Positions 4,936 through 63,060 of a stretch of 64,000 bases of DNA are shown piece by piece. Source of the stretch: Trichodelitschia bisporula (Eukaryota; Ascomycota; Dothideomycetes; Phaeotrichales; Phaeotrichaceae); assembly GCA_010356995.1 (NCBI GenBank), contig ML996689.1, positions 452,691 to 516,690 of the forward strand, read 5' to 3'. The notes beneath the pieces are model-generated. The model searched no databases, was not told the DNA's origin, and saw nothing but the letters and a program-made list of their open reading frames with translations. Position 1 is the stretch's first letter; the number at the start of each line of letters is the position of its first letter. The translations under genes were made by a program, and so were the position numbers.

Positions 4936-5721
4936 GGCTGCTCAGGGAGGGACGGTTCGATCAGCAGTGGGACACGAAGCGGAATACAAAGCGGGGTACA
5001 AAGAGGCAGCAGCCAATGGCCCAAACAGAGCCGCAAAGCTCTTTCTTATGTCCCCCCACCTCCACCCCTACCCCGCGCCCTGCCGAGCGGCCGAGGGGTC
5101 GCGGTCCGCGGGGTAGGGTAAGGCTCGGCCCGTGATAGGTGGAAGATTTAAGCTCTGGATGCAGGGCCGGGTGGATGCGGCGGTGGCCGGCGGCGGGGTG
5201 GCTGTGCGGGAGGCACGAGGCTGGAAGGGGTAGCTTATTCCCTCGTGGGTTATCGTTGGTCGAGGGCGCGGGGTACGGCCTGCGGGCGAGAGCGGACGGT
5301 CTAGATGCGGCTGACGTTGGAGGGGGTGTAGATATCACGTGTAGCGTAGAGGCTGGATATTGCTCCCTGTCTCGCGGGTAACGTCTTGCGAGCTCGAACG
5401 CGCGGTGATGAAGATATCACGTGTGACTGTGCATATTGCTTCATATCGCGCGGGTAACGTCCACTACATAGCCGGCATCGTGAAGGTGTGTATTGCTTCC
5501 CTTTCTTGCAGGTAACCCATTACCCGGCATCGCGTCCAGCAAGCACGGTACGACGCAACTCAGCCCAGACATCACAGAACAGCCGTAAAACTCCCCTATC
5601 CGCCCAAAAAAGCACCCAAACGCCGCCGCAGAAAACTCCCAAACTTCAACCCCGCCGCCAAAGAAAAAGGAGAAAGCCACCTCATCCCCACCTCATAATC
5701 CCCACCTCATAACCCCCCCCA
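4936..5721. other. Spacer with a degenerate tandem repeat
   Basis: The spacer upstream of the dehydratase contains no gene I can support. It includes three imperfect repeat units (5331-5517, listed separately) and, from about 5560, C/A-rich sequence running into the 3' end of the next gene. Confidence 0.5.
5331..5517 (+). repeat. Three imperfect copies of a roughly 55-80 bp unit
   Basis: Units start at about 5331, 5412 and 5480. Copies 1 and 2 begin GATATCACGTGT and end TCGCGGGTAACGT or CGCGCGGGTAACGT. Copy 3 keeps the ATTGCTTCC centre and the GCAGGTAACCCAT-like end. All three contain ATATTGCT or GTATTGCT. Two E-box-like CACGTG cores lie in the first two copies, so a regulatory role is possible but not shown. 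Confidence 0.55.
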
Positions 5722-6630
5722 TCATCTCCCCCCAACCCTCTTCCCCCACCACCCCCTCCTCCCCATCCCCATCCCCACACTCCCAATCCCAATCCCCCTA
5801 ACCTGCGGCGCCGGTCCCCCCATCCCAAGGATAACCTCGCCCCTCAACCCCCTCAATCCCCTGCTCCTGTTCCCCGCGCCCTCAGCCCGCATCTGCCCCA
5901 TCATGAAGTCCCACCCCTGACTCTCATAGTACATGGCCGTATCCGGATCCCGCATGCACATCTCGCGGTACAGGCGCTGAGCCCTCGCCCGTTGCGCCGC
6001 CGCCTCGCCGACAAGCGCGGGGTCCTCAAGCGGGCTCGCGGGCGCCGCAGCGGGGGAAACGGCAGGCGCCGCCACACCACCCGCACCTGCGCCACCCGTC
6101 GCCACGGCCGGACCCGCTCCCGACCCCGCTCTCGCCGTCGTCGCCGGCGCTGCTTCCACCACCGGCGCCTGCACCAAACTTGTCGCACTCAAACTGCCCC
6201 CACTGTTCCCATAAATACCCCCCACAAGCCCGCTCAGCAACTCGGCCGCCGCACTCCCACCCACGCGCTCCATGCGCCGGCGGGCCACATTCTCATACTG
6301 CCTGCTGTGGCCCGAGCGCGCGGTGGTCCAGTGCGGGATGTGATACGAGTGGAGGGCGAGGGGGTCGCGGGAGGGGGAGGAGCGGAGGGGGGTAAACCCT
6401 GGAGCGAATTCCTGGGAGGGGAGGCCGCGGGGAGTGGGGTTGCTTCGGTTGCGGTTATGGCTGGTGGTTGGGGGGAGGAGGGGCGCGTGCAGCGTGTAGG
6501 GCGGGGCTTCGGAGTGGTAGCTGGGTGCGGAGGAGATTATGGAGGCGGTTTCGGAGGGGTCGTCGGGGTTGCGGGGGGGTGTGTAGACGGGGAGGGGTTC
6601 GGTGGTGGGGGTTTCGAGGGTGAAAGGCAT
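5722..6630 (-). CDS. Conserved ascomycete protein of unknown function, 302 aa
   Basis: An uninterrupted frame of 302 residues. The N-terminus is Pro/Thr/Ser-rich with PPxY-like and tyrosine motifs (LPVYTPP, APSYHSEAPPY), of the kind bound by WW-domain ubiquitin ligases in arrestin-like adaptors. A more conserved middle block (YHIPHWTTARSGHSRQYENV, followed by ARRR) is compact and basic. An Ala/Gly/Pro-rich linker leads to a short helical block (AQRLYREMCMRDPDTAMYYE) and a Gly/Arg-rich tail. I see no signal peptide, membrane segment or enzyme motif. The two ordered blocks embedded in low-complexity sequence suggest a genuine gene rather than a chance frame. Molecular role unknown. Confidence 0.7.
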   Translation of the reverse strand: MPFTLETPTTEPLPVYTPPRNPDDPSETASIISSAPSYHSEAPPYTLHAPLLPPTTSHNRNRSNPTPRGLPSQEFAPGFTPLRSSPSRDPLALHSYHIPHWTTARSGHSRQYENVARRRMERVGGSAAAELLSGLVGGIYGNSGGSLSATSLVQAPVVEAAPATTARAGSGAGPAVATGGAGAGGVAAPAVSPAAAPASPLEDPALVGEAAAQRARAQRLYREMCMRDPDTAMYYESQGWDFMMGQMRAEGAGNRSRGLRGLRGEVILGMGGPAPQVRGIGIGSVGMGMGRRGWWGKRVGGR

Positions 6631-6639
6631 CGTGAGCGA

Positions 6640-6957
6640 GATGCTGGAGCTGGAGCTGGAGCTTAAGCTAGAGCAGGAGCTGAAGACGGAGCTAGAGCTG
6701 AGGTTGTGTGCTGGGTAGGTAGACAGTCAGATCGACAGAGGGCCCGAGTACGTTCAAGACGTCTCGTCGTTATGGAGGATAAGGTCGGGTCTGTGGAAAC
6801 CGAAGCCGGAGCTGGAGCTGGAACTGAAGCCGGAGCTGGAGCTGGAACTGAAGCCGGAGCTGGAGCTGGAACTGAAGCCGGAGCTGGAGCTGAGCTGGAG
6901 CTGAAACAGAAGCTGGAGCTGGAGCTGAGCTGGAGCTGGAACAGAAGCTGGAGCTGT
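6640..6957 (+). repeat. GAGCTG hexanucleotide satellite with a 24-bp higher-order unit
   Basis: Two arrays (about 6640-6700 and 6795-6957) are built from GAGCTG/GAACTG hexamers. In the second, about four copies of a 24-base unit (GAAGCCGGAGCTGGAGCTGG plus AACT) run in tandem. The first array begins right at the start codon of the 302-aa gene on the minus strand, so it lies in that gene's leader or promoter. Both strands are open across the array only because the hexamer is a multiple of three; I do not call these frames genes. Confidence 0.8.
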
Positions 6958-6966
6958 GCTTCCGGA

Positions 6967-9068
6967 GAGGTGTGCGGCCGATGTGTGAAGCGAAAGTAGC
7001 TAGAGGATCTCCAGAGGCACCGTTGCTCTGAAGGATCAGATCGTATAGGCGTGAGGAGCCGTAACCGTAGATGAGGTTGTATCGCCGTCGCTGAAGCTAT
7101 GAAGCTATCGCTGTGTGCCGGTACCGTTCGTGGCCTCGTACGTCCAACCTGCGTGGTGTGGGGTGCGGGGTAGAGCTGCGTTCCTTGCTCACTCTCGTCG
7201 TCACGTCCTATCTCAATCCTACTCAAAAGAATCCCACAAACAATGCAGTACTCTCAAAAATCACCGCCAAACTTCAGCCGCAAAAAAAAAAAAACCCGGA
7301 GGAGAACGAAGTTCCCGCAATCGACGTGGCCACGCGGCGCCTGATATGCACTTCGGCGGATAACACGCCCACTCCCCTTCCCCTCCACACTAGCCACCCA
7401 CACCTGTCCCACCATGCATTATTGTCTCCACTGCCCGCCCATCCAACCGCACCCCGGACCCCAAGCCACAGATCCATGCTGCCCAGTCGCGTTGCATGGC
7501 TGCGCCTCTGGGCTGGGCTCGGCCTCTGTGGGTGGGCGGGTGCCAAGGGAGGGATTTGGAGATGGTGGGTGGTGGGCGAGACACGGGGCACGCGACTTGG
7601 GATGGGTTTGGGGGGGGGGGGGGGGGGGGGGGGGCGGGGGGGGGGGGGGGGGGAGTGGTTTCGTCACGGGGAGGGGAGGAGAGGAAGAGAGAGAGGGAGG
7701 GGAGATGTGTGGATGCTTGCTGCGCCGGAGCGTGGTGCAGCGGCGCCGGTGCGGTGCCGGCCGCGTGCGACGGGTTACGTACTGGATGATGGCAAGGCGG
7801 GGAACAGTGGAGGAGTGTGGAGAACAAGAGGGGAAGCCGAGCAGAGCTGAGCGAGCCGAGCAAGCTGAGCCCGAGAAGAGGAGCTGAAGCAGCAAGAGGT
7901 AAGGATAAGAATGTAGGGACGCAAGGGACGTAATCCTTCTCTTACTCTCTCCGACGCGATTAGCAACAGCATACAGTTAAAGCGAGAGATTCCTTCGCAA
8001 GTTACGCGGTCAAGAAAAGGACAAGCGAAGCCCAAGAGACTCAAGGCGGACCCCGCAGTTGAGCACGGCACAGCCACACGCGACCCGACCGGGGCGGGGC
8101 ACATCGGCCCAGGGCTCATCGAAAAAAAAAAAAGTCATGTCCGCCCCGGCGAACTGGACCTCTGCCAAATTTTGGAGAGAGAAAGACACGACTTTTTGCG
8201 GGCCGCTATCGATTGGCGTTGCTCCTCTCCTGCTCATGACTTGGGCCTTGCAGGCTGTGTCTGCTGAGCCAAGTTGGTTTTAATATCTCAAACACACCAA
8301 AGACAAGATCAAGACATGATCAAGATAAGACCAAGACACAATCCACGTCTGCCGAGCCCGTTGGCGAATTTCAGCTTCCGAGGAACCTCTTTGCTCCCGA
8401 CGTTGTGGACTGCAGGTGGAGATGCGGTGGAGCAATACAAGCAGCAAGGAAAGCATGTCGCACATGTAACGCCGGAAAATGGTGTGTGGCGGTGGATCCC
8501 TCTTCTGTCTCTCTGGTCATGCATTAGTTGCATTCTCCGGGGTAAAGTACCATAGAAACACATGCTCATCCCGCATCCTCATCACTGCAACCCTCCTCAA
8601 AGCCAGTATTCGGCCCGAAACACCACGCGGCTCGGGAGACATCTCCGGGTTCACGAGCCACGAAGCTTCTGAACTCAGAAAACGGGGCCGTCTAGCCGAT
8701 GAGCGTGGCCCACCCACATGGGGATCCACTGTACCACCTATTCCTGGTATCTGATGTCGTCATGTGCGATTCCCGGCAATACCCGCTGTGACGCCCAACG
8801 GAACAAGAGGCGGAGGTTCTCCCGGCTGGTAACCGACCAACGTCATCAGCTGCCGTGCAACGCAACACAGCCCTGAAGTCGCAGCAAACGCCCGTCTCGG
8901 CTAAGGAGGCGAATTGTACATGCCCACACAGGGCTTCTATCTCTACGGAGTAGATACGCCATTCCCCGCGTCTATTCAGTTAACGCCAAACGCCTCACGC
9001 CTCACGCCTCACGGCTCGTCGTACACCCAGCATAAAAAGCAGCAGACATCTCACATCCCTCGTCACAT
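6967..9068. other. Gene-free spacer with a long G tract
   Basis: No gene is supported. Open frames across 7100-7900 on both strands are products of G-rich low complexity, including the homopolymer at 7610-7653. The stretch 7840-7880 has a loose GAGCTGAGC repeat. From about 9020 the sequence is C-rich and leads into the 3' end of the next gene. Confidence 0.5.
7610..7653 (+). repeat. Poly-G tract, 25 G, one C, 18 G
   Basis: A homopolymer of G interrupted by a single C at 7635. Such a run can form a G-quadruplex and is prone to length error in sequencing, so the exact length is uncertain. It lies in a spacer. Confidence 0.9.
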
Positions 9069-10780: not shown

Positions 10781-12528
10781 CAACGACTCCTGACCCGCTG
10801 CCAACTCTGCATCTCCTCCTTCCCACCCTTATCCTCAAGCCCCATCCCCCGCTCAATCCACTCCCGACTCCCCATCTCACTAAGTCGGCTCAGCGCCCGC
10901 GCAAACGCAAACCGCTCCTCGTCGCCCGTGAACAAGCTCGAGTTCTTAAGCATCGACATGTTCATCCCTAGATCGTCCATCAGGCTGCGCATCACGTCGC
11001 TGACGTCGTGGTGTTCGTCGCCTTCGGGGATTTCGCCCTTGGCTTGGCCGGAGTGCATGGCTTCGTCCATTTCGTTGCGCGAGAGGAAGAGGCTGGTTAG
11101 CGGGACCGCGCTGGTCATTACGAGTTTGGCCTATGGGGATTAGCAGGGTTGGGGGAGAGGGGAGGGGGGGGGGGGGGGGGTTACCCGGCTCTCGTACACG
11201 GCGTCAATGAACGTGATAAATCGCCGTGCCAGATCTCGCGACTTGTGGTCCATGCCCGGGACCTCGGTGATGACAAACGCCTCGTAGCTGCGCATGAGCT
11301 CGAGGTAATCCGCGGCGCCCGTGGCGCGGCCAATCAGCTCGTCAAACGAGAACATAGCGGCCTTGCCGCTCGCCCTTGGGACATGAATCTCACGGCCCCA
11401 GACCTTATGCGTAGCCGTGTGGGGCGGATCGCCCTCGAAGTCGCCGAGAAAGCGGAACCACTTCTCGGCATGTGTTTTGGCTGCGTTGTTCAGCGGGTGG
11501 TGGTAGACGCCCGAGGGCGGGCGCGGGATCTTGCGGTAGTCGGTGGAGGAGTCGAGGTTGATGACGCGGAGGCGGTCTTTGAGCAGGTTTATACACGGGA
11601 TGAAGGACTGGCGCTGGATACCATTGCGGTACAAGTCGTCCGGGTGGCGATTCGAAGTCGTGACCATGACGACGCCATGCGCCATAAGCGATTCGCACAA
11701 GCGCCGCAAGATCATAGCGTCCGCGACGTCGGTGCACTGGAACTCGTCGAAGCAGAGCACGCTACTGCGCTCCGCGATCTGCGCCGCCACGAAGGGGACG
11801 CCATCCATGTCGTTCCCGTACTGCTGCTTTATCTTGTGCAGATCGCGGTGCACCTCCTGCATGAAGTTATGGAAGTGGATCCGCAGCTTCGACGTAATAT
11901 TCGGCGGCAGCGTCTCGTAGAACAGATCCATCATCATCGTCTTCCCCGACCCTACATCGCCGTACATGTAAATGCCGCGCGGCGTGGAGGACGGGATGTC
12001 AAACGCCGTCTTGGCCTCGCTCTTGCGCCCGAAGAGCCCTCCCAGGAATGACTTCTTCGCTGGCTGCAGCGACTCGATTGACGGGTGCTCCACCGGCCGT
12101 GGCTTGTATCGCGCCAGCGTGTCGTGCAGATCCTGCAGGTCCTGGATGATAGCGCGCTGGTGCTCGTCGTCGCGCAGTCGACCCGACGCCACGCGGTCGT
12201 CGTATTCCTGGAGCGGGCCGTGAGAGGTCGGCACGCTGGGTGCGCTTCTTGAAACGGTTGAACTGGCTAGGTGCGGTCAGCCATGCGCCGAGGCATATAC
12301 TGAGTTGGATAACGAACCATGGCTGCTTAGAGATTGCGCGTGAACGCGCGACGGGCGCGCAGGACGCGCACTTGTGCGCTGGAGGCCATTCAACAATGGC
12401 CATGTTGCGAGCGCAGACAGCGAACGGTGGGCGTGAAGTGGGGCGAATGGCGGGAGGGGTCTCAGCCCCGCAGAGGGGGGCGGGCAGAGAGTGGCGCGCA
12501 GGGCGCGGCGGGTGAGAGGCGATGTCAT
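10762..12528 (-). CDS. AFG1: AFG1-type mitochondrial AAA+ ATPase, three exons
   Basis: AFG1/LACE1 (ZapE-like) P-loop ATPase of the mitochondrial matrix face, implicated in turnover and assembly of inner-membrane respiratory proteins. Exons on the minus strand are 12528-12318, 12266-11185 and 11130-10762, giving 553 residues. The first about 70 residues are rich in Arg, Ser and Leu and lack acidic residues, as expected for a mitochondrial presequence. The catalytic core shows Walker A GDVGSGKT (174-181), Walker B CFDEFQ (about 243-248) and a sensor region (VTTSNRHPDDLY). The family C-terminal block is split by intron 2, which joins DAVYESR to AKLVMTSAVPL. Intron 2 contains a run of 17 G/C. The last few codons (REDSL and stop) lie inside a degenerate repeat, so the extreme C-terminus is probably not conserved. 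Confidence 0.94.
11164..11180 (+). repeat. Poly-G tract (17 G) inside an AFG1 intron
   Basis: A run of G on the plus strand reads as a poly-C tract in the sense strand of intron 2 of the AFG1-like gene, immediately after the GTAAC donor. It does not alter coding sequence. Confidence 0.85.
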
Positions 12529-18360: not shown

Positions 18361-18432
18361 TAGCTGAAGGTGGTTTCGATCCACCGTCCTCCGGGTTATG
18401 AGCCCGGCGCGCTTCCACTGCGCCATTCAGCT
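18361..18432 (-). tRNA. Initiator tRNA-Met (CAU)
   Basis: On the minus strand a complete cloverleaf folds. There is a 7-bp acceptor (AGCTGAA with TTCAGCT), a D-arm (GCGC..GCGC), an anticodon stem CCGGG/CCCGG with loop CTCATAA, and a T-arm GGTGG-ATCGAAA-CCACC followed by discriminator A. Eukaryotic initiator marks are present: an A1:U72 first pair, three consecutive G:C pairs next to the anticodon loop, and A54/A60 in the T-loop (ATCGAAA instead of TTCGA). No intron is present. The internal A and B boxes needed by Pol III are intact. Confidence 0.95.
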
Positions 18433-23106: not shown

Positions 23107-25700
23107 ATGGCCCGCCTTCAGCCCGCCTCCAACTCCGCTCCTCCTGTCGCGGCGCTGCCTCTCCGTCCTGTCGCTGACCTGTTCGTTACCAACCTCCGCC
23201 TGCTCGACCTTGACCGCAAGCCGGACTGGCCAGGCATCACCCCGCGCACCTTTTCGACGAAAGACTCGCAGCAAAATCAGAAACAGCGCATCAGATGCGT
23301 CGAGTGGGCGTTATTCCGGTTGTTTGAGATTTGGGATGCGGACGAGGCGCGAGACGTAGGTTGCTTCTTTTTTTGACCGTAGATTGCATGCTGAGTGCGC
23401 AGAAACTCCAACCCTTCTTTCCGCCTCTCGAACCGCTGCAGTCGCTTAACCTGCGTGCGGCCCTTTATCGCTCGCTCAATGAATTGAAAAAGAATGGCGT
23501 GCTCGGGCGCGAGTCGACGCTGCGCAAGACGATGCTGGACGAGTGCAAGGGCGATAAGCTCGTGGAGATTCTTGTCGTCTTCTCGACGGCCGTGTTGCGC
23601 AAGGTAGAGCTTGCGCGCCTCAGCGACGCGCGCCGTGCTCCTGTCGCTATTCGACTGGCGACGGCGTCGATGCTGGACCCTGCCCAGCAGCGCTCGCTAC
23701 TCCCGTTGGCCATCGCCCACCGTGCGGCGCTCACCCGACTACTCCAGCGTAAGGAGCAGATGCGGGAGCGAGTCCGCGAGTTCAAAAATCTGCTTGACAC
23801 TAAGAGCGCGCAGCTGCAGGAACGCTGGGACAAGTGCTCTAAGACACAGCTTGCGTCCGTCAGCGCAGCCGAGGAAGCGCAGGCGAAAAAGACGCTGCAC
23901 GAAAATTGGCCTGGCCACAGCAAATGGCCGGAGACGCTGCTCTACGGAGACGATACCGAGGCCGGCGACCAGCTGCTGCACCAGCCCTTCCAGGATGTGT
24001 GGCGTGTCGTCATGTCGGGCGGCACGCTGCAGCCCGCCGAGGAAACAGTCGGGTTGCTGCAGAATCTCGAACAACGCATCAGCAACCAGGCCGAGCGGCT
24101 GCAGAAGTGGCAGGCATTCCGCGAGAAGATAGTCAAGACGCCGACTGCGGAGACGACTCGTGCGACGACTACCGCGCAAACGGAACTCCCCTTCCAATTC
24201 AACCAGCACCAGCTCTTGCAGCCTGAAACAGCGGCCGCCCCCAGCGTGTACGACGAGGAAGTGGCCGAGCGTGTACACACCTACCAGGATATCGTTGCGA
24301 AGATGCGTACTGACCTCGCCGCCGCCTCTCGCACCAAGCGGGATGGTGGCTTGGGCTGGAGCGTTGACATTGACAAAGCTGCGACGCGCAAGCCTGCCGC
24401 TCGTCGGTCTCCTCAGCCTGGGAACATCACGCGCTTCGGCCCAAATCGCTCGGCGCAGGATCATATCCTCGCGCAGCGCGATGCCTTCCAGCCGTACAAG
24501 TCGGCGCCATTCGACAATGTCTTTTCGCCGGCCAAGCAGCCCCTCCCGCCCGCGGCGAGCATCAATGTCCCTATTCCTGAACCGGCAACTCAGCATCTGG
24601 ATCTCGAGACTCGTCTCCGCCTTGTCAAGTCACGTGCGCTCGATGCGGCTGCCACGGAAGCCCGTGAGACAGCAGCGGCAGCGGCAGCGGCGCCGAAGCC
24701 GAAGCCCAGCATCCCAAAGCCAGTGATGAGTGCAATTCCGTCCCTCCGCCCTACCGCTCCCGGTGCGTTGCAACGAAGTAATACCAATCCCTCGCTCCGC
24801 GTCACAGCTCCCAACCCCCCGAAATACACCCCGCAGATCCCGCAGCTCCCGCTGCCACGCACGCAAAGCAACCCCGTCGTTCCCACCAGCAGCAACACAG
24901 GTGGAGGCATAACCACCAACCCCGCAACAACCATGCCCCCACCCCCCGCCCCCTCCCAACCATCCCGCTCCCATTCCCGCACAAACAGCGCCGCCCGCTC
25001 CCCCCGCCCCGCGCACTCAAGGCACAGCTCCTTCGCCCCCCCATCCCCTTCACGACGCAGCTCCTACGCGCCCGCCTCGCCGTCCCTGCCCTCGCCCTCG
25101 CCCTCGCCGGACTCAGACGATCCGGCTGCCAAAATCATCGCGGGGATCATGAACGCCGCGCCGCACTCGCCTACCAAGCGTTCCGCCCCGCTCAGCCTCG
25201 CCGAGCGCACGCGGTTGTCCATGATCGCGCACAGCGCGGCGTCTAAGCCAGCGCTTGTGCCATCGTCCCCGCCGTCCGCTCCCGGATCCGCCGCCTCGAC
25301 GTCGCCGCCGCAGAGCCCCGCGGCTGCGGCGCTGGATCGCCGCTTGAGTCTCATGGAGCGCACGCGACACTCGATTGCGCTGGTGCCCGCGCATGCGCCG
25401 CAGCCGCTGCGTCCGGCTAGACGGACGAGTTTGTTTCCTGTGAATCAGTTTGAGGGGCAGGGGATGCGGGGTGTGGGGGAGGGGGTTCGGCGCGATGCCA
25501 CGCCTACTGATGCGCTATTTAGTGAGGATGCGGAGTATGAGAGTGTGTTTAAGAGCAGGCCGAGGGTGGCGTTGAGTCCGGTTTGGAGTCCGAGTCCGGA
25601 GGGGGAGAGGGGTGTTGGGTTGGGGTTGAGGGTTGAGGAGGAGGAGTGGGTTGGGAGTTCGCCGTTGGATGGGAGAAGGGAGAGGGGGGTTAGGGTTTGA
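23107..25700 (+). CDS. HAUS6: HAUS augmin-like complex subunit 6
   Basis: Likely the HAUS6 subunit of augmin, which recruits gamma-tubulin to existing microtubules for branching in the spindle. Exons are 23107-23355 and 23403-25700, phase 0, giving 848 residues. The N-terminal about 250 residues match the HAUS6_N pattern: LFVTNLRLLDLDRKPDWPGI, RIRCVEWALFRLFEIWD, FFPPLEPLQSLNLRAALYRS and DECKGDKLVEILVVFSTAVL. A helical region with charged heptads (about 190-330) follows, including ALTRLLQRKEQMRERVREF. The C-terminal half is Ser/Pro/Ala-rich and disordered, with repeated short SP and RTRxSxx motifs (LAERTRLSMIAHS, LMERTRHSIALV) that may be kinase sites. The 47-bp intron has a GTAGGT donor. The gene looks intact. 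Confidence 0.85.
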
Positions 25701-47440: not shown

Positions 47441-50352
47441 ATGAACAGCAACGGCAGCCTTCAACGATCGACACATGATTCAACGTAAGTCGAGACCCTT
47501 GCCAGTATTCTCCCAATCCACTCGGGGCTGCCCTTCCTGGTTGTCTTTCGCCTTGATTCCCCCCCCCCCCCCCCCCCCCCCCCTCCACCAAGTCACGATT
47601 TCCCGCCTTGTGGCTGGCAAAGAAGCGCTCCCGCACGAGAAGCGCAGCACTGCAGCGGCCAGCGCCCTAGCTGCTGCAGCCATGCACACGCGCCAGATGT
47701 GGGCGTTGCCGCTGCCCGGGCAGTGCCGTCAAAACTTCCGCCCCGTTGGCAGCCGGAATGGGCCGTTAAGATGCGCATTTGCGCTCTCTGCTCGATCCGC
47801 TCCCATCCACGTCGTCACTGCAGAGCATCGCGAGCGTTGCGCACGTCGCACAGGAGCACATAACACCAGCGGGACCAGCAGGTCCCGGTCGGGCGGGGCA
47901 GCTATTTCATATCCAGACCCTCGGTCCCGTCGGTGAGTTTGTGTGGTTGATCACACGACAATTTGGGCCCAGCAAGAGAGCAGAGGAGCGCAGACCGGTT
48001 GGAATAGTTCGTTGCTGCCGTTCCGAATCTGCACCTCGCTGTGCCACCCGAGCCTGGAGGGTTACACCTACCTCTCACCCCCCTCTTTCCCCCAGTTCCC
48101 TCAGCACCCCCCCGTCCCACCCTACCACAAATCTTCTCATCGTTCCGCATGGTTTCCCTTTCTAACCCCTTGTGCGTTGTCTCGAACAACATCAAGCACC
48201 TCCCGTTCCCTGTCGGCTAACACTCGGCCGATGCTCATCCAGATATCACACCGGGTCAAGCATCTCAGACTCGACCAACACCACAGGCTCCGTGTCGACA
48301 AGCCCAAACTCCAATACTTCGTCTCTCGCCTATTCCAACTTTTACCCGCAAGCGCAAGCGCGTGTTGCAAGTCCCTACCCCACCGCTTCGCAGGTGGTGC
48401 CGCTGCAAAACTCCTTTGCCTATCCCCAGTCGTATGGTAACGGACTGCCAAATGTCGGACAACGGCACTCGTCTATGTAAGTATCCCGGGTTGTGGCTGC
48501 TGGCTGCTTGCAGCAAGTTCAGTTCCCTGAACTTGCTTGCAGCGGATGGCGGGATTGGGGGGGAGGTTCGGAAGCAGATCCCAAGAATGGGGAATTTTGC
48601 TCCCGAATCTTAGGATGCTCCACAGGAACGCAATGTGCTAACCAGTCACCGTGTTGCGTTCACAGAGCCGATTCCTCGAACTCCGGTTCAGGCCTGCTAG
48701 CGTCTGCACGACCATCGGGCCTGGGTAATCCTGTGTCACCGATCTCAAGCTCCGCCGTAAGAGATAACTACACCACGTCGACGCCGGGTGTGAACAGGCA
48801 CATGCATTCTCCTCGCTCACAGCTCGATCCCCTTCGCTCTTCCTACTCTTCCTCGATGCCCGATACCCCTCGGTCTCTGTTTTCGTCGACGGCCAGTATG
48901 TCTCTCTCGCCAGGCGGCTTGTACACCAACCCCGCGAGTATGGGTTACGGGGTGCACCCGACCTCCGACCCAAGCGGGTCTGGGGAGACGCCACCCTTTG
49001 CCAGTCAGCAAGATCTCCATGAGATAACGTGCGAAGGGCAGCCCGTCAAGCCACACATCGAAGCCAAGATTGAAAAGGGCTTCTTCTACTCGGGCGACAT
49101 GTGCTGGACTTGCTATCGGAGGAATTACTTCTCTGTGCAATGCTCCTACACGTTGACACCACACATCCCAGGTCGACCTCTTTATCTCACTCGCTCGTCA
49201 AATTCTTCCTCAAAACAGCCCGAGCAGATCCAAGCTCTGGCTATGTCTCTCTCTGCCGCCGTTGACGGTGCTCAGGGGAAGGCGATTGATCTGGTCCAGC
49301 ATACGCCGAAGCGCGACAAAGGGCCTCAAACTCCCATTCAGATCACGAAGCTCTGTCCTACACCCCCTGGCGGAACCAAACTCCCCCATCTCCATCATCA
49401 CGCGGCCGATCCTCATTCTCCCTACGGCCCTTTGGCGCCTTACGGCTCACATCACCACCACCCGCATCACCACCCACCGAACGCCGCCCAACCCCCAGCA
49501 TCACCCTACCTCCCTTTGCAACAGGTTCCAGATCCCGACCAGCCCAATCTCTCCAACGCAAACTCCTCCAGCGGCGCCCCTCCAGGCTCCGCCTCCGCCG
49601 CCTCCTACCTAACGCACCCCCCTTCTCCAACCGCTCATCAGCATACCTTCGAGCGCATCCAATTCAAAAGCGCAACCGCCAACAACGGAAAGCGTCGCGC
49701 CCAGCAGCAATACTACCACCTGATCGTCGAGCTCTGGGCCGACGTGCGCCTCCACCACGACCTGAAGCCCAACTGGGTCAAAGTCGCCCAGCGCGCGAGC
49801 TCTCAGGTCGTGGTTCGCGGGCGCTCGCCGAGCCACTATCAGAACGAGGGGCCGAGCGGGGGCCCGCGGGGGGGCAGTGCGACGGGCGGGCCGGGCGGGG
49901 GCATCGGGGGTTTGGGTGGAATCGGTTCGATGGGCCTGCGAGGCGGGCTAGGCGGCGGACACAGTCTCAGCGGCTACGCCGGGCTTGGCGGTGGCTATCG
50001 CGGTACTCAGTATGCGGCAGGGACGGAGGGCGCGATGGGCAGTGTGAGCTCTGGTTCCGCAGGTACGGGAGAGAATGTCGAACTCCCGGTCTCGGAGGCG
50101 GCAACTCCAGTCAAACAGGCCACAGGGGCATACGACGGGTACCAGTATTACCCGAGCCCGCTGTATGAACTCCCACTGCCGCCGGTTAAGAGCGAGGTGT
50201 TTGGTGATTTGACTACGCGGAAGGAGGAGGGCGTGTCCGGGAGCGCGGCGGCAGGCTTGTTTGGGTCTGGAGGGCTGTTTACGGGTGGTGTGGGGAGGTT
50301 TCAGGGCGTGCATAGCAGTCGTGGGTACTATGCTGTTGACTCGGTGTACTGA
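47441..50352 (+). CDS. vib-1: NDT80-family (VIB-1/XprG-like) transcription factor
   Basis: p53-like NDT80 DNA-binding-domain factor of the VIB-1/XprG/PhoG group, which controls extracellular protease production, nutrient-starvation response and heterokaryon incompatibility. Firm exons are 48243-48476 and 48666-50352 (intron 189 bp, GTAAGT..CACAG). The DNA-binding domain runs from about 49020 to 49840: EIEAKIEKGFF-like (HIEAKIEKGFFYSGDMCWTC), YRRNYFSVQCSY, IDLVQHTPKRDKGPQ, HTFERIQFKSATANNGKRRA, YYHLIVELWADV and NWVKVAQRASSQVVVRGRSP. A His/Pro-rich insertion splits the domain (about 49375-49510). Gly-rich and Tyr-rich activation-like tails follow. Two upstream exons are tentative: 47441-47484 (ATG AAC AGC..) and 47826-47936, which together keep frame into 48243 only if the donor GTTTGT at 47937 is used; the stronger GTGAGT at 47933 breaks phase, so another small exon may exist. 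Confidence 0.8.
47559..47583 (+). repeat. Poly-C tract, 25 C, inside a putative 5' intron
   Basis: Lies between the tentative first and second exons of the VIB-1-like gene. Confidence 0.85.
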
Positions 50353-54255: not shown

Positions 54256-56180
54256 GGGGTTTTCGTAGCCTCCCGGGAGGTGAGCCTTTTGCTATTTTGA
54301 AGGTTGTAGGCCTTCTGTGGAGCTTTTGCATTGCCTATTTTGTTCATGCTAGTGGTGGTTGGGATGGAAGACTGATAACACTGTCTTCGTTTTGCCGCCT
54401 CATATCCCATCCCAACGCCTGTTCGAGCAAACCGTGGGAGCTGCCAGTGGAATCATACACCCTGAGCATGATCTGATCCCGCTCCCAACTTGTCAACACC
54501 AAACATGCCCCACTGGAGAACTCAACGCCCCAAATCCCGCACCGAAACCGCCTCTCGCCGGAGCGTCCAAGCCAAATCCCGCACCTCCGGCGAAACCCCG
54601 TTCGCCAACCATACCGGTACCCACCAGCCCATCTCCTCCATCCCTTCCCTCAACCACCACCCTTCCCTCTCCCCCTTAGCGCCCCGCACTGCTCCCGCCT
54701 TCATCACCACGGCTTCATGCTCAACACCGCCCCTCATCTCTGCAGCTCCCCCCGCCCCCGTGGCCGATGTTGCGGTACACTCCACGGCACCCGCATTCGT
54801 GTGATGAGCGCACTCGCACAGCGTCTGAGCACGAGGGTGGAGGCCTTGATTGGACGAGCAGGCCTTCCCTTTGTTGTGCATCATCAACTATTTTGCAAAG
54901 TCTAGCACATACGGCCATAGGTCGCAGACATATACCTGTGTCCGCGGGAAAATAGCCGCCAAATCCGGCGGTTTGTAACGGCGTTTCTGGCGTCAGATTT
55001 CCCCAATGCAGGCTTCCAAGAAATCGGGCGCTTAGAGTGTTCAGTATCCCTGTTGATGGCTAACAAATTCCAGCGGACGAATTATATGAATTAGAAAATC
55101 TAAAAAGCGGCTTACCTCGCATCGAGAATCAGCCCTCCGCCACTTTTTCTAGCTCCCGCCTCGTGCCCCTCTTGGGTCTCTCCATCGCCGCCGCCTCAAT
55201 GCGTCCTCCCGCATGCCGTTTTTTTGTCCGCCCGCCCAGGTGATTTCCGATAGCCCATCTGACGAGGGGAGAGCTGGGCGCGGTTTATTCGCAAAGGAAG
55301 AGGTAGTAGAATGGGGTACTTGCGAGGCCGGTAATGCGATGGATACGACCACGCGGGGCCGCTTGATGGACGGGAGGAGCCGCTAGGCTAGTTCGAGGGG
55401 AAGCTAGGCGCTGTCTATCACTTCAACCTTTTGCCATTATTAGTCTGTTGACGACAAGCTGTGGAGTTGTGGATGGACAATCGTTTCTCCTCGATGGGGA
55501 TGATGCCTTTCCTTCACAGTTGGAATGGCCGCACGCTCCCGCGGGCTCAATTGTTCCACGGTACTGTATGTTTCTCGAGTCCCGCGCTGACGACACGATA
55601 CAACATGACTGAGACGATGTCGTCTGCTCAACTCCAATCGAGCCTTCAATCCAGCACCAGGACGCTTGCTAACACCCATCTCACACATTATCCGGCCACC
55701 TCTTCCACAGAATCAACTACGTATCTCCTCCATCAGAACAGTCTGTATGCCCCCTCTGTCCCTCACTGCGCTGCCAAACTCCCGCCCAAAACCATGACCG
55801 CCACTCCGGCATCCTCCCGAGCCCGTTTATGCTTGAGCCCTGGTCAGTCTCGATATCCCGTACAGCATCTACGACGCGGGCATAGACGACGCAAGCAGCG
55901 TAGGCGGTGCACATGGATGAACAACCGGGTATCTCCTCCAGCGAAGTCTTCGTCTATGAACTGATCAGTTGGAAGGAGAACTTGATGCCCCGTGGCATGT
56001 GGCTGTGTCTCCTCCAATCTCGTCCTCCCCTCCGCGCCCGACAGCTCACAGCCTCATTCTTGGCATTCTGCCCCGCAGGTGATCTCAGCTGGAAGCCCCA
56101 AAGCCTCGCCTTCAACCTCGAGTTGCACTCCTGCATTTTCACAAGTCCGCAATTTCTTGACTAGAATCATTATTTCCAAA
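54246..56180. other. Spacer between the tRNA-like sequence and the NLR-like gene
   Basis: No gene is supported, although 55460-55965 is open in more than one frame. A 5S rRNA gene head lies at 54907-54924 (listed separately). If the mobile-element reading is right, 54925-56180 would be the left part of the element. Confidence 0.4.
54907..54924 (+). rRNA. 5S rRNA gene 5' fragment (head only), copy A
   Basis: ACATACGGCCATAGGTCG is the characteristic start of ascomycete 5S rRNA (compare ACATACGACCATA in Neurospora). After about 18 bases, or weakly up to about 40, the 5S pattern is lost. The identical 18 bases recur at 60877. No 5S tail follows within the next kilobases until the diverged copy at 60424. 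Confidence 0.6.
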
Positions 56181-59100
56181 ATGCCACCTGCAAAGCGGGT
56201 CCAGACACGGGGCCACTTCTGTGCCTCTTCCGGCCTTTCACCACCTTCCTCACCTGTTGCTGGCGAGACCACCACGCCTGCCCCCATTAGCAGTGTCGGC
56301 TAGACATCATCTTTACCACTTGCCCCTCAGAGAGCCACCAACAGTGGACCAACCCGCCGACTTCGTCATGAAGACTACACAATAAGATGGATATGCGCTC
56401 TCCCGATGGAACTTGCGGCAGCTCAAGAGATGCTAGATGAGGAACATCAGAGTCTCCCTCAGAATGCGGCTGATTCCAACGTCTATGTGCTTGGCCGCCT
56501 CGGTGGACACAATGTCGTAATTGCGTGCCTACCCGTAGGCCAAATGGGAACCAATGCGGCAGCCTCGGTTGCTGCCCAGATGCAGTTGACATTCAACTCT
56601 GTCCGGCTCGGCCTGATGGTGGGCATCGGAGGTGGTGTGCCAAGTACAGCTGATGTACGGCTTGGGGATGTCGTCGTCAGTCAACCGTTCAAGGATCACG
56701 GCGGAGTAGTGCAGTACGACTTCGGCAAGACGACATCAGACAAGTTTGAACGGACTGGATCCCTCAATTCTCCCCCGCAGGTCTTCCTGAAGGCGATGGC
56801 AAGCCTAAAGGCCAATAACCTCCGAGAGAGAGTCGGGTTCTTACACTCTCTTTTGAAGCTCGCCCAGTACCCAAGATTTGCACGGGACAAAGCCGGGCCA
56901 GATGATTTATACCACGATACCTACAATCATGAGGGAGGACCTGACGACTGCCAGAAGTGCCGGAAAGAGTACGTGGTACGACGCCAGCCGCGCGGCGAGG
57001 ATGTTGTTGTCCATTACGGAACCATAGCCTCCGGGAACCAAGTCATGCGGGATGCGACGATAAGAGACAAACTCAGCACGGAGCTTGGAGGCGTACTCTG
57101 CTTTGAGATGGAGGCAGCGGGGCTCATGAACAGTTTTCCGTGCCTTGTTGTGCGGGGAATATGCGACTACTTGGACTCGCATAAGAGCAAGAGCTGGCAG
57201 CCGTACGCGGCGGGGACGGCGGCAGCGTACGCTAAAGAGCTTGTGTTGTTGGTTCCGCCGGCCAAAGTCGAGACACCAGAAGATCCACCCGCGCCGGCAA
57301 TGCTCCTAAACTTGCCCAGGGCCGCAGACACACCATCGAAGCCACACGAGCGGAAAAAAGCGCCTTGCCTGATTGGTACCCGGGTCGAACTTCTCAGAGA
57401 GATCTACGCCTGGGCTTACGGGGAGAACTCGCCAAATATTTTTTGGTTAAGTGGTTTAGCTGGTACCGGCAAGTCCACTGTGGCTCAAACTGTGGCCGCC
57501 GAATGTTTTCAGAAGGGAAGGCTTGGAGCCAGCTTCTTCTTCTCGCGAAGTGGCGCAGATGTCCGGCATGCCGGCAAGTTCGTGACAAGCATCGCAGCGC
57601 AACTTGCAGACAACGTGCCGGGGGCAAAGCGGTCTCTCTACGAAGCACTGAAGGAGCGAGATACCATTACTGAAGAACCTATCCGCAGTCAGTGGCATCA
57701 TCTCATCCTCGGTCCCATGTCGAAGCTCGAAGGCGACACCTCTGCTCCGTACATCCTGGTAATCGATGCCCTTGACGAATGCGAGGGCGAGGACGACATA
57801 TGGGAAATTCTGGATCTCTTTCGGTGGCTGAAGAAAACCCGGCTCCGGCTGTTTTTAACGAGTAGACCTGAAGTGCCAATCCGGTCTCCTTTGTCCGGAA
57901 TGCCAACAAGCGAGCACTTGGACTTTTTGCTCCACAGCATTGAGAAGTCGACTGTTGACAACGATATCCGCTTCTTCCTACGGCACGAGTTCGAAGGTCT
58001 AGCCCGGGGACGCTCTTTTGGGAAAGATTGGCCAGGTGAGCAAGTCATCGACTCTCTTGTCCGGAATGCCAGTGGCCTGTTCATCTGGGCTGAAACCGCA
58101 TGCCGCTTTGTTCGACAAGGAAAAGCATTCGCTCCCGAGAAACTAAGCTTGATCCTCGACCGAAGCCATAGTACTGTGAAAGCGCCAGAGAAGCATCTCG
58201 ACGAGATCTACGCGACTGTTCTTCGCCAATCCTTTACCGACTATGAAGACGATGATGCAGAAAAGCTGCGATCCACATTGAAGGAACTGCTTGGAAGCAT
58301 CGTGATCCTGTTTGATCCGCTTTCCATCCGGTCCTTGAGCAAGCTACTCGGCCAGAATATGGGTCGGGCACTGGATGATCTTCACGCCATTTTGGACATT
58401 CCAAAGGAATCAGGTGACGCACTCCGTTTACATCACCCTTCGTTTCGTGACTTCCTTCTCAATCCAGGGAGAAGCGGGAAAACAGGTATCTGGGTTGATG
58501 AAGAGGAGGCGCATCGAGCCCTTGCCACGAAATGCATACTGGTCATGTCTGACTTCCTTACGCAGGACATGCTTGGAATAGGTCGGCCTGGAGTACTCAA
58601 GACCGAGGTCGACAGTCATGAGGTTGAAGGCTCCCTCCATCCTGAGAAGCAGTATGCATGCCTCTACTGGATACAGCATCTTCATAAGAGTGGATCTCAG
58701 CTCAACGATGACGGTAAAGTTCATCAGTTCCTGAAGAAGCATCTCCTTCATTGGCTTGGGGCGCTTGGATGGATGCAGAAGGTTTCCGAAGGGTTCCATG
58801 CCATCGTGTCTTTGGAGTCCATGATTTCGGTAAGCTGGACGTAAAGCAGAATGGGGATACTTGGCTGATACTTGGCTCAGGCGCAGAGGTGTCCCCGACT
58901 GTCGGGGTTTGTTCATGACATGAAACGATTTGTCCTCTACAACCGGTCAGCCATCGAACTAGCTCCCTTGCAGACATATTGCAGTGCGCTGGTATTTTCC
59001 CCGGCAGCAAGTCTTGTAAAAAGGCAGTTTCAAAGCCAAAAACATCTGTGGATGCCCCGACTACCGCAGGTTAGGGACAACTGGGATGCCTTGCTGGATA

Positions 59101-59415
59101 CGCTCGAGGGCCATTCGGATTCGGTCAGGGCCGTGGCCTTTTCGCCGGACGGCAAGCAGCTGGTGTCGGCATCGGATGACGGGACGGTCAGGCTGTGGGA
59201 CGCCGGCTCGGGAAAGGCGCTGCAGACGCAAGCAGTTGCCAGGTTCCGGATCGGATCCTCCACGTTTCAGAATTGTCGGGGAATGGATGACCATAGGTGC
59301 GGAAAAATGTCTTTGGCTTCCAGTCGAGTATCGCAATCCGCTACATGTCGCTGTTCACGGAAGCAAGGTTGGCTTGGGGTATTCGTCTGGTCGAGTACTG
59401 TGCAATTTCTCTTAA
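56181..59415 (+). CDS. NLR-like protein: PNP/UDP phosphorylase - NACHT - remnant WD40
   Basis: A fungal STAND/NLR-type protein as used in non-self recognition. Domains in order: a nucleoside-phosphorylase-like N-terminus (56370-57270: IRWIALP-like [49 protein letters not shown]); a NACHT ATPase (57360-58450: Walker [10 protein letters not shown], Walker [39 protein letters not shown]); and a winged-helix/linker region. After a GTAAGC..GCGCAG intron (58833-58891, approximate) a single WD40 repeat follows (59092-59220: [33 protein letters not shown]). Beyond it a typical family C-terminus ([20 protein letters not shown]) lies in another frame, so the tail is shifted or reduced. A first exon from the ATG at 56181 ([12 protein letters not shown]) joins only through a very short intron (36 bp), so the 5' end is uncertain. 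Only one WD repeat remains where relatives usually have several. Confidence 0.82.
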
Positions 59416-60423
59416 CCGCCTCCCCACCCACCTCCGTTGCGGTCTTAGCCCTTTATACCTCTTTGAGAGTGAAAGTGGCAAAGGATTACAAATGGGAATG
59501 GTACGGCTTTGAAATCAAGCACTCCATTAGCAGATGGTAACAGTGGCGTACAAAAATGTCGCCAGATCAGTGAAGTAATGGCTTCAATGCAATGGGTATC
59601 TGGAAACATCTGGAATTAACCATTCCTTCAGTCCACAGAGAAGGTATGATGGAATGTAGTGGCTGTGTTCAATGTTTTCCACTCCCAGTTCTTGCGTCGA
59701 GCAGAGCGTTGATGAAGACGGGACCAGGCCCTAGCACAACCTGGTCAAAGCCAGAAAAGGGAGACAGTTGCGTACACCATGTCCTCTCAATAGCCTCCAT
59801 TGATAAAGACCTGAAGCTGTATTAGGATGCTAGGCGGATAATCCTATGTTTGTCATCTGAGACCCTACACAGAGAGCCCGATTCTTGAGCGCCACCAACT
59901 CCACCCGCGCCATCAACTTCACCCGTGTCACCAACCCACTCGCCACCTGCGCCACTGCCTCAGCTCGTCTTCCCTTCCCTCACCACGGTACAACTCCACA
60001 CTTAGCCCCCTAGCCACCCCACTCGGAGAATCGGAGTGCGGGGTAGTGTTGCCTGAGTCACGTTGGGGCCGAGCTGACACTGCGAAGACGGAATATGGGT
60101 CCTAACAGGCGCCCCCGCTTAATTGAGATATGACCCTTCCGATACTCATGATACTTCGCTTGCAGGTCCAACCGGGCCGGTTCTGGAGAGGGGAGCCCGG
60201 CGACAGGCCGAAGACGGGGCGATTTAAGGGAGGCGCTGTGGTTCAATGCGGAGGGCAGGACGAGCACAAGTTACTGCCCATCTAAAATCACTTAGCGCGT
60301 CAGTAATTTCCAATTGAAGGAAATCTGGTGCTGGATTTAGCGGCAAGACGGACGAAAGTATTGGCTAGCAAGGATGACAATGCATAGGTTAGTCCAGATT
60401 GGGCACTTTTCTAATTGAGCTTA
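59416..60423. other. Spacer downstream of the NLR-like gene
   Basis: No gene is supported. Short frames at 59592-59825 have no conserved features. Sequence from about 59880 to 60000 is CCAC-rich. Confidence 0.4.
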
Positions 60424-60542
60424 GGATACGGACACAAGTCAAAGAGAACATCAGCCCCAGTCTGCTCACTGAAGTTAAGCTTTGAACCGGTTGACTAGTA
60501 GTTGCGTAGGTGACCAGCAGCGAATCCCAACTGCTATATGTT
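60424..60542 (+). rRNA. Diverged 5S rRNA copy (pseudogene or variant)
   Basis: The 3' two thirds is clearly 5S: GAAGTTAAGC, then GACTAGTAGTTG, GTAGGTGACC, CAGCGAATCCC and the end GCTATATGTTTT, in the right order and spacing, with T-rich terminator sequence after it (TTTTCTGTCTTTTTT). The first about 30 bases (GGATACGGACACAAGTC..) only loosely follow the 5S head and do not pair well with the 3' end, so the gene is damaged or chimeric at its 5' side. The total length of about 119 is right for 5S. Confidence 0.75.
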
Positions 60543-60544
60543 TT

Positions 60545-61164
60545 CTGTCTTTTTTACACCCCGGAAGCTTGCTGATCGGCTCGTTCAGCGGGAGGAGCTC
60601 CGAAGCTTAATGTAAGCCGACACTCTGGCCGAAGGACCAACCGAAAAAGTCATAGCTGTCCCGTCCGCAAAATCAGCCAGGCGAGGTGGCCATGATAATT
60701 TTTCAGGTGGCCCGTGAAGCTTTCTGCTCAGCCGGCTGATCGAGGGAGATGCTCCGCAGCTTAACGCATGTCCCCTATTCCAACCCAAGAACGCTCTCGC
60801 TCGGAGAGCTAACACTTCTTTTGACAATGATTTTGTTTTTTCGCTAGTTATTAGTTAACCGGCAAGACAGTCCACCACATACGGCCATAGGTCGGAGAAT
60901 GTATCTATGGTCGCGTCCCAATTTGGTAAAACTCTGAATTTGCACTGCCGTCATATATCCTTTGTCATTAGGCTTGGCGAATATCGTCCAATTAAAGTTG
61001 CCATTATTAAGCGCGCGACTACGTAAGGGAATTGTCGATTCTTCTTTTCAACTTCTCAAATTTCCAGGACGACGAATAAGGCGTCCTTAGATGCCTTCGG
61101 TAGGGGCGTTGTTAGATGGTCCTTAGGAGGGCTAGGAGGTAAACTAGTTAATGCTCTGACTTAA
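60545..61164. other. Spacer between 5S copies and the recombinase relic
   Basis: Contains an imperfect duplication: GCTGATCGGCTC..GAGGAGCTCCGAAGCTTAA (about 60571-60611) and GGCTGATCGAGGGAGATGCTCCGCAGCTTAA (about 60734-60765). The second 5S head begins at 60877. No gene is seen. Confidence 0.45.
60877..60894 (+). rRNA. 5S rRNA gene 5' fragment (head only), copy B
   Basis: The same 18 bases as copy A at 54907 (ACATACGGCCATAGGTCG), in the same orientation, 5970 bp to the right. After this point the 5S sequence is not continued. The DUF3435 recombinase frame begins about 270 bp downstream. Confidence 0.6.
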
Positions 61165-62014
61165 ATATCCCCGAAGACCACTGCAGGTTCAGAAGTCAAC
61201 CTGAGCCGAACCCACCATCAATGGAAAGAGTTCTGTGAAGCTGCACGAACCTCCGATATTCCTAATGGAGATGCACTTTTCAGTGACCCTGAAAAGTGTA
61301 TGGCGGAGGCTGACCCTGAGCTGGTTATGTTGTTCCTGAAATGGACTTTGGACACGCGAAAGGGAATCCGAAAAGAGATAACTATTAACGTCTACTATGA
61401 CCGGTGGCACGCCGCTCGAAGACAAATACCGCATCACCGAGTGTGGAGCCTTGAGGACAGGAGGCGTGTCAATTCAGTAAGAGACTCATCTTGATAAACT
61501 CGAAACTAATTTTGTATAGTTCATCTCTTTGGATCTAGCCTCTGAGCATGGACTCAGTAGAGAACGGCAGCCGAAGCCTGTCCTAAGCTTTGCCGATATG
61601 GCCATCCTTCTCAACCACCTTTGGAAATGGGACAGACTGCAGTATACCAACGAGACGTTACGAGTCCAAGTCACCTTGGTTATACTGATTTCGATGGCTA
61701 CGACAACAAGGCCAGCGGCATTGCTAGAGCCGGTGTACGCCAAACAAGGTCATGGGGAACTACCCAAAGTTCTTCGTTATGAGCATGTCAGGGTCTTCTT
61801 AGTCCGCGATTCCGAACGGATGAGACAGAAGCTGGTTCTGGAAATCAAATCTTGTCTTTCACAAAGGATACGAGCGAAATCCCAGATCGTAAGTAACTTC
61901 AGTTTGGCATTTGCATGCTAATAATCTTCTACAAGAACCGCCCACATTCTTACCGAGACAGTGGAGCTCATCTTTGATCCCACAATACCCCTGCTGTTTC
62001 TCGCATTCTGTTAA
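61165..62014 (+). pseudogene. DUF3435 tyrosine recombinase (Starship captain-like), truncated
   Basis: Exons 61165-61476, 61520-61888 and a fragment from 61936, with GTAAGA..TATAG and GTAAGT..ACAAG introns, keep phase across the first join. The protein reads like DUF3435: THHQWKEFCEAAR, DPELVMLFLKWTLDTRKGIR, KEITINVYYDRWHAARRQ, SFADMAILLNHLWKWD, LRVQVTLVILISMATTTRPA, YEHVRVFLVRDSE. The TTTRPAAL stretch corresponds to the family's ATRPGAL box with the first catalytic arginine. The third exon has the expected motif only in a shifted frame (VELIFDPTIPLLFLAFC) and then a stop. The distal catalytic part (HxxR and the nucleophilic tyrosine) is missing. No in-frame ATG precedes 61300, so the 5' end is also incomplete or lies in another exon. 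Captains start Starship elements and move them; this one cannot be active as it stands. Confidence 0.8.
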
Positions 62015-62328: not shown

Positions 62329-63060
62329 TTACCCATTGCTTTCCCGCCCAAAGCGACACTCCAGCCCCAAGGCTTTCCTGAAAACCAGAAAGCGATCCTT
62401 TGGCAAGGTATTGGTGAGTCCGTCAGCGATCTGCTCCTTCGTCGAGATGTACCGCATGTCGATGACCCCCTCCGCCTGCTTCTCGCGTACAAAGTGGTGC
62501 TGGATGGCGATGTGCTTCGATCTGGCGTGAAATTGGGGGTTCTTTGCCAGCGAGATGGCGCCTTGGTTGTCTCCGAAGATGACAGTGGCTGCTGGCTCAT
62601 CGTGTTTGAGAAGCTCCTTGAGTAGGTTGCGCAACCAGACAGCTTCCTTTGTTGCTTGCGTCTGCCCCATGTATTCCGCTTCGCATGATGACAACGCAAC
62701 AACACTCTGGCGCTTCGATGACCAGCTCACTGCTCCACTGCCGAGGTTGAAGATGTATCTGGCCGTTGATCGCCTCGTGGATGAATCCCCAGCCCAGTCA
62801 GAGTCGGTGTAACCAGCCAGAGCCTCCAGCGATCCGCGGTACACAAGTTCCACCTCCATGGTGCCCCGAAGGTAGCGAACGATCCTCTTGACCGCCGTTT
62901 CGTGCTGGGGTCCGGGGTTCGCGAGGAAGCGACTGCAGATGGAGACAGCGTATGCGATGTCGGGTCTAGTACCAAGCATGGCGTACATGAGGCAACCGAT
63001 CGCTTTGGCGTACCAGGTCTTGAGGCTCTGAGGGGCCTGGAAGTCATCGGGTGCTGGCAC
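62329..63060 (-). mobile_element. Ty1/copia retrotransposon relic (3' part of pol)
   Basis: A fossil of an LTR retrotransposon of the Ty1/copia family. The part present is the end of the reverse transcriptase domain and the RNase H domain; motifs include IGCLMYAMLGTRPDIAYAVS, YTDSDWAGD, SSCEAEYM and SKHIAIQHHFVRE. Gag, protease, integrase and most of the reverse transcriptase are absent from the window, so it is a fragment. This piece itself is little decayed, suggesting moderate rather than great age. Confidence 0.9.

Follow-up and report, generated by a model that had tools for sequence, protein, structure and literature searches.

How did an NLR-like gene, a DUF3435 recombinase and two truncated 5S rRNA genes come to lie within 8 kb of each other in Trichodelitschia bisporula? 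The preliminary description proposed two neighbouring, degraded Starship-type insertions targeted to 5S rDNA. The window, meaning the whole analysed stretch of 64,000 bases (C3:452691-516690; contigs are given as C numbers), was therefore compared with the rest of this single genome (25.65 Mb, 30 contigs). From these sequence comparisons we consider it likely, at roughly three chances in four, that both insertions belong to a family of small, presumably mobile elements with a 5S-specific, captain-type tyrosine recombinase, related to the 5S-targeting Starships. The features of the locus are as follows.

54877-54906, plus strand: sequence preceding the original 5S gene, with AGC as its last bases (counts below)
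54907-54924, plus strand: head A, remaining bases 1-18 of the target 5S gene, identical to intact 5S
54912-54944, plus strand: putative left recombination site of element A, CGGCCATAGGT, an 11-base spacer and ACCTGTGTCCG; inverted half-sites matching at 9/11
54925-55430, plus strand: left end of element A, repeated genome-wide (13 A left ends)
56301-56303, plus strand: in-frame stop that interrupts the NLR frame before 56406; in the C5 copy this position is open
56406-58844, plus strand: NLR ORF of 812 codons, PNP_UDP_1 and NPHP3_N/NACHT (44.7, 108.2 and 34.4 bits)
59094-59201, plus strand: single WD40 unit in the next open frame behind the NACHT part (PF00400, 53.5 bits)
60250-60423, plus strand: right end of element A, recurring at 17 other places, two of them partial
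60424-60542, plus strand: right junction of A, where a full-length 5S is rebuilt; the element end supplies bases 1-18 (GGATACGGACACAAGTCA), and the tail is 5S-like
60543-60876, plus strand: 334-base spacer of the extended (V3) right end, at eight other places; at C19 in a plain 5S pair
60877-60894, plus strand: head B, 5S bases 1-18; outer end of the extended element A and target of B
60882-60913, plus strand: putative left recombination site of element B, CGGCCATAGGT, a 10-base spacer and ATCTATGGTCG; half-sites matching at 9/11
60895-61400, plus strand: left end of element B (13 B left ends)
61200-62014, plus strand: broken DUF3435 (captain) gene, profile match 61595-62008, two stops

Left ends at a common position in 5S genes

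The heads at 54907 and 60877 were said to share their first 18 bases exactly. They do, and these bases are identical to the start of the genome's ordinary 5S genes. The 18-mer occurs 27 times in the genome and the reversed control pattern 0 times, on which ground a chance resemblance of the heads was rejected. Some of the 27 sites are full 5S genes; the others lose their identity to 5S near base 22-25 and continue as one of two repeated sequences. Alignment to intact 5S genes bore out that identity is lost at an equivalent position, at about base 22 in A and base 22-25 in B. For comparison, 47 5S genes were scored among 1770 first-look candidates and all 47 passed the cut-off, 39 with Rfam scores of 85-96 bits and eight with 61-79 bits.

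With queries of 524 bases from each head, matched stretches numbered 30 (A) and 21 (B). Since the genome search scores the best candidates only, all element copy counts are lower bounds. Thirteen type A and 13 type B left ends were resolved, dispersed over the genome. Among them, the 5S head is no longer present in the A copy C11:433793, and in the B copy C3:249693 the genuine head is replaced by another element's right end. Internal or partial matches lacking a left end (C16:620829, C29:24667 and others) were excluded from the element counts. A third, diverged type at C23:287887 on the minus strand resembles A (77% over 115 bases) and possibly represents an older family; it stands outside the A and B counts.

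The upstream 300 bases of the 26 left ends are unrelated, bar one weak pair (71% over 94 bases). AGC immediately precedes the head in 14 of 27 left ends, and also in many intact 5S genes. A shared element end had been expected for A and B. Copies of one type do share their ends, but A and B differ from each other over their first 330 bases. From base 19 onward the copies of one family hardly differ (A reads CAGACAT, B in most cases GAGACTGC) and base 18 varies, which suggests that target sequence ends near base 17-18. Over 290 bases the B left ends of the window, C30 and C11 do not differ at all, pointing to recent movement.

Right ends and rebuilt 5S genes

The diverged full-length 5S noticed between the heads is present at 60424-60542 (RF00001 48.6 bits, gathering score 38), but it is not a separate copy between two insertions. 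The 174 bases in front of it recur at 17 other genome places, two of them partial; it is therefore the right junction of element A, and a bystander 5S was rejected for the same reason. These 174 bases served as query for right ends, with the best 40 of 63 candidates scored. Outer flanks past the last 5S were compared at 18 right-side loci and are unrelated except for one C5 pair. At one of these loci (C19:627762) no element lies in front, and at C8, C17, C18 and C25 no left end was found.

Three forms of right end can be distinguished. V1 consists of GGATACGGACACAGGTCA or a near variant followed by 5S bases 19-119. V2 has the V1 head, about 130 bases, GAACGCGGCCATAGATCA or a near variant, and then 5S bases 19-119. 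In V3 a V1-type 5S is followed by the 334-base spacer and then by a gene with a true 5S head. Single variants are present at C4, C13 and C17. Element A of the window has the V3 form and extends from 54925 to 60876, where head 60877 leads into B.

On the element side, 11-13 of the 18 bases agree with the 5S head, and so do 9-11 of the 12 positions 6-17. A match of at least 11/18 was obtained at 152 of about 128,000 window positions (both strands), the two exact heads counted in. The resemblance is thus modest, yet it lies flush with the 5S tail in every right junction read. As the right repeat resembles the 5S head and abuts bases 19-119, a full-length 5S is rebuilt. The products of V1 and V2 are full-length but imperfect: Rfam scores are 54.1-70.6 bits for V1 genes with unique flanks (4 copies) and 58.4-71.7 bits for V2 (6 copies). 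The inner V1-type 5S of V3 scores down to 42.5 bits (window copy 48.6). The outer 5S of V3 reaches 78.2-90.6 bits (7 copies: L006, L009, L027, L093-L096), and six V3 outer genes are among the genome's 39 5S genes at 85 bits or more.

An ordinary 5S pair with the V3 spacer, 93% identical to that of the window, is present at C19:627307-627880. Its first gene is of the CTTTGA type that is carried inside V3 copies. We infer that an element inserted in the first gene of a pair like this adopted the head of the second gene as a new right end. The sequence of C19 would also result from excision out of V3, so that C19 could be source or footprint.

Fifteen of the 26 left ends could be paired with a right end located 1.7-10 kb downstream in the same orientation (A 10/13, 5.5-8.4 kb; B 5/13, 1.7-10 kb). 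Elements with both ends measure about 5.5-10 kb, the longer copies about 8-10 kb and a single deletion copy 1.7 kb; in the copy at C13:158916 only the spacer and 5S portion of the right end is recognisable. Five of the 11 left ends without a right end reach a contig end (C27, C30, C21, C9 and C14), and C4:83403 has a 5S match 8.7 kb downstream. No right end was found, and no contig end reached, at C13:98611, C4:935785, C3:394875, C25:177555 and element B of the window. Stretches of N interrupt the C5 element (4690-6399) and the C11 element (294-7083). Element ends also lie within a few kb of contig ends on C8, C9, C14, C17, C18, C21, C25, C27 and C30; given their number, breaks in the assembly appear to be caused by the elements or by their repeats.

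The dimensions bear on a different origin, in which the 8-10 kb units are internal-deletion products of giant Starships that kept captured NLR cargo and then spread. Such remnants could have the DUF3435 gene first behind the head and reading inward, as is seen here, and NLRs and 5S targeting are known in Starships according to the available parts of three reports (PMC12153272, PMC10128009, PMC12134995). Against this, ten A and four longer B copies are both-ended, 5.5-10 kb long and collinear at unrelated loci. Both ends at similar spacing at unrelated loci indicate that the small unit is the thing that spread. No large element with A or B ends was seen, although contig breaks could hide one. 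We regard remnants of giant Starships as unlikely. For the family of small elements, two A-then-B stacks were found, the window and C3:256277-239729. Insertion of A first and of B first would give identical junctions, hence the order of insertion cannot be told.

Of the two insertions described as degraded, B clearly is, and its right end was not found in the right-end search of the genome. Element A has both ends, and its damage consists of an early stop in the NLR and of about 0.76 kb missing after about base 331 relative to the sister copy on C5. An ORF just right of the broken captain (62329-63060, minus strand) presumably is the RNase H end of a Ty1/copia retroelement; it had no Pfam match at 0.001. 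This Ty1/copia-like ORF may have helped to remove the rest of element B.

Exchange point and inverted repeats

Dispersed 5S genes vary at bases 16-21 and at the positions that pair with them in the stem. At least six stem types were distinguished, altered correspondingly on the two sides (for example TCGAAG/CTTCGA, TCGCTG/CAGCGA and TCACAG/CTGTGA), which indicates that the 5S genes are not homogenised. In six V2 junctions inspected by eye, base 18 fits the stem pairing in 0/6 and base 19 pairs in 4/6. This suggests element sequence up to base 18 and target sequence from about base 19, with two exceptions; with base 19 paired in only four of six, the exchange point is not fixed to the base. Three of the four V1 junctions with unique flanks have the CTTTGA stem type, which among intact genes was seen only at C19:627307. 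The sharing of CTTTGA may go back to the targets, or the two 5S genes of V3 may have recombined.

AGGTC(R) is common to both junctions. Read in inverted orientation, the left end of A gives CGGACACAGGT, as in V1, and that of B gives GGAACGCGGACGTAGGT, close to V2. Twelve end pairs were compared with 300 shuffles each, one pair spanning different loci (B_C1 against the C4 V2 end). Inverted repeats were clear in 9/12: 0/300 shuffles were as good in four pairs and 3-14/300 in five. Of the three pairs lacking a significant inverted repeat, one is an A copy whose two sides both carry point changes; the other two each join a B left end to an A-type right end. In two B copies the B left site forms an inverted repeat with B right ends (0/300 shuffles as good).

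The putative half-sites are 11 bases long. The A half-site matches 5S bases 6-16 at 9/11 and bases 27-37 at 8/11, and 20 shuffled half-sites gave 0 or 1 equally good site in 64 kb. The two half-sites match each other at 8-9/11 in left junctions, at 7 in the 5S gene itself and at only 4-7/11 in right junctions.

These ends are at odds with two further explanations. A 5S-flanked NLR block could have spread as a segmental duplication by homologous recombination, in the absence of a recombinase; dispersed 5S genes can recombine, and V3 and V1 could interconvert in this way. The breaks, however, fall at one position near base 18 and not anywhere in the 119 bases, the ends are inverted repeats and the outer flanks are unrelated, making this course very improbable. 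SINEs derived from 5S exist, so that a 5S-headed retroelement or SINE was also considered. This candidate was rejected as hardly credible: three ORFs tested gave no reverse-transcriptase match, the termini are inverted repeats and the 5S is rebuilt at the right junction. The proposal of a 5S-targeted insertion itself held up, on the common break point, the repeated ends, the unrelated outer flanks, the inverted repeats and DUF3435.

The NLR gene and the captain

An NLR-like gene between head A and the 5S at 60424 had been noticed and was recovered as the 812-codon ORF, with NPHP3_N, PNP_UDP_1 and NACHT matches. The window copy shows the architecture of a fungal NLR: an N-terminal PNP_UDP_1 domain, an NPHP3_N/NACHT NTPase and one C-terminal WD40 unit. 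In the C5 copy the NLR is the only large gene shown, and the region of the WD40 repeat array reads N. The element at C11:722710, where 6,790 of 7,873 bases are N, says nothing on cargo.

A genome search with the window NLR gave 55 matched stretches. By position, an NLR match lies behind 13/13 A and 5/13 B left ends (18/26 overall), the B copies being C27, C30, C3:249693, C4:83403 and C11:185150. The B copies at C9 and C5:109734 contain the region that precedes the NLR. The NLR is thus not the incidental cargo of one copy, as had been supposed, and instead occupies an equivalent place behind these 18 left ends. Relatives outside recognised left ends exist; two are close and partial (C4:944081, 83%; C20:259914, 84%). 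Similarity among the NLRs is independent of end type (A copies about 88-93% or 65-81%, B copies 89% or 70-81%), and ends and NLRs therefore appear to have been exchanged.

Codon comparisons covered the first 126 codons of 14 of the 18 NLR starts; one frame-shifted copy, one that was too short and two with N were dropped. dN/dS was 0.44 in clade one (10 pairs, dN<dS in 8), 0.28 in the other clade (36 pairs, dN<dS in 35) and 0.14 between the two clades (45 pairs, dN<dS in 45). Over the 812 codons, window and C5 copies differ by dN 0.041 and dS 0.110. By these values the coding sequence of this predicted immune receptor is under constraint. Broken copies include those of the window (stop at 56301-56303) and C4:935785 (stops). 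Between NLR and right end, an 18-base minisatellite is present in each of the two copies examined (window 59889-59943; L102 4443-4527).

A DUF3435 gene had been placed within about 270 bp of head B, in captain orientation. This is roughly correct: a recognisable frame begins about 0.3 kb behind the head and the PF11917 match at about 0.7 kb (38.9 bits, cut-off 25.8). The gene does read inward, but its frame is interrupted by stops. Among the best candidates scored, DUF3435 gave nine matched stretches at five loci (C21, C3:248k, the window, C9 and C13), the C9 match lying under the cut-off (22.3 bits). All five are situated just behind a 5S head and four are B copies. The captain is the first gene and reads inward in 4/13 B copies, five of the 13 being cut off by contig ends, and at the C13 locus. 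At C13 (C13:327387-329457, minus strand) DUF3435 lies behind a diverged 5S head, ACATACGGTCACAGGTT, which is followed by a B-like repeat; with an end unlike A and B, this locus probably represents a third 5S-targeting family. By the positions of the matches, the copy at C3:249693 has all four parts (captain, NLR, right end, 5S match) in one orientation over a span of 10 kb. In the C21 captain frames (unjoined exons) we presume to recognise residues resembling the catalytic set of tyrosine recombinases. No PF11917 match was found in any of the 13 A copies among the best candidates, in sequence that has gaps, and a captain inside A copies was rejected.

Relation to known elements and proposed mechanism

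Osiris Starships of the Enterprise family in Aspergillus fumigatus are inserted in 5S rDNA and fragment the 5S gene, with mean sizes of 38-138 kb, according to the available part of the report (PMC12153272). Like them, the T. bisporula family consists of tyrosine-recombinase elements in 5S rDNA. Unlike Osiris as described there, the units are about 8-10 kb long and a full-length 5S is rebuilt. For the Voyager Starship of Macrophomina phaseolina the site AGAATACAGGGC is given in the part of the source available (PMC10128009). Compared by this reported site only, Voyager and the present family appear to have a 5S stretch in common. By alignment to 5S sequences, AGAATACAGGGC would fall at about 5S bases 20-31. 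As in 5S-targeting elements of the Osiris and Voyager type, the insertion place is fixed, with breaks near bases 17-22 at unrelated loci.

The short direct repeats and inverted repeats of Starships are found here as well (AGGTC(R); 9/12 pairs). The large size and multi-gene cargo typical of Starships, which are no strict rule, were not found, with 1.7-10 kb in 15/26. The family is thus Starship-like in enzyme, target and ends, and unlike Starships in size and in the rebuilt gene. The Starship assignment of the preliminary description holds for DUF3435, ends and target; it is not established for each copy, as the copies are small and A shows no captain match. We group them with 5S-targeting captain elements, short of proven Starships.

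Phages and ICEs that integrate at tRNA genes supply, from one end of the element, the stretch that the target loses, and thereby restore a full-length gene. The junctions described here resemble this arrangement. They differ in that the 5' part of a fungal 5S gene is replaced and in that the replacement is imperfect except in the extended form. The junctions show a way for an element to insert into an essential multicopy gene while a full-length gene remains afterwards, much as with phages at tRNA genes. In Aspergillus nidulans, 5S pseudogenes combine a 5S front part with a common 'block C'; a literature search found no paper on these.

From the ends, inverted repeats, target position, copy number, NLR content and unrelated flanks seen in the genome, enzyme action, movement in trans, transcription of the rebuilt 5S genes and an order of events may be proposed. 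The family would insert at a single position of 5S rRNA genes through site-specific recombination. The DUF3435 tyrosine recombinase of some B-type copies would recognise facing 11-bp half-sites, CGGNCNNAGGT, 10-11 bp apart, and 5S bases 6-16 and 27-37 would be such a pair. Exchange around bases 17-22 would then produce a left junction of 5S bases 1-18 plus element and a right junction of element plus 5S bases 19-119, where the 5S-like terminal repeat would rebuild a full-length 5S. The A copies, in which no captain matched, would have moved in trans. The standard resident gene would be the NLR (PNP-NACHT-WD40). In one branch the right end would have shifted outward to the next 5S gene, including the spacer and the true 5S head, and insertions of this V3 form would leave a canonical or near-canonical 5S.

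Taken further, the family could be a minimal mobile immune-gene system, a reading we hold tentatively and at slightly less than even odds. The NLR would be the resident gene, served by a 5S-specific recombinase and by 5S-imitating ends that rebuild the host gene, and the boundary would move to the next 5S gene, taking up the DNA between and gaining a perfect 5S end. If boundaries do jump in this manner, it would be a testable way to take up cargo, and the 5S head as right end would be a means both of sparing the host and of acquiring cargo. Neither a rebuilt 5S nor an NLR-only element is described in the available parts of PMC12153272, PMC10128009, PMC12134995, PMC11623301 and PMC12258605.

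In domain content the NLRs resemble other fungal PNP/NACHT/WD40 NLRs. They differ in that a dispersal route is visible, with copies inside elements at 5S genes. The elements suggest a concrete route by which fungal NLR repertoires could spread other than by tandem duplication. The mixed ends and the graded rebuilt 5S genes should also allow the site rules of the recombinase to be read from sequence.

Comparison with the PDB gave no match for the NLR and for one other window protein; a third matched NDT80. Other genes in the window are the NDT80-like factor (48493-50349), a protein with a HAUS6 N-terminal domain (23331-25697) and an AFG1-like ATPase (11143-12234), and a single tRNA-Met is located at 18361-18432.
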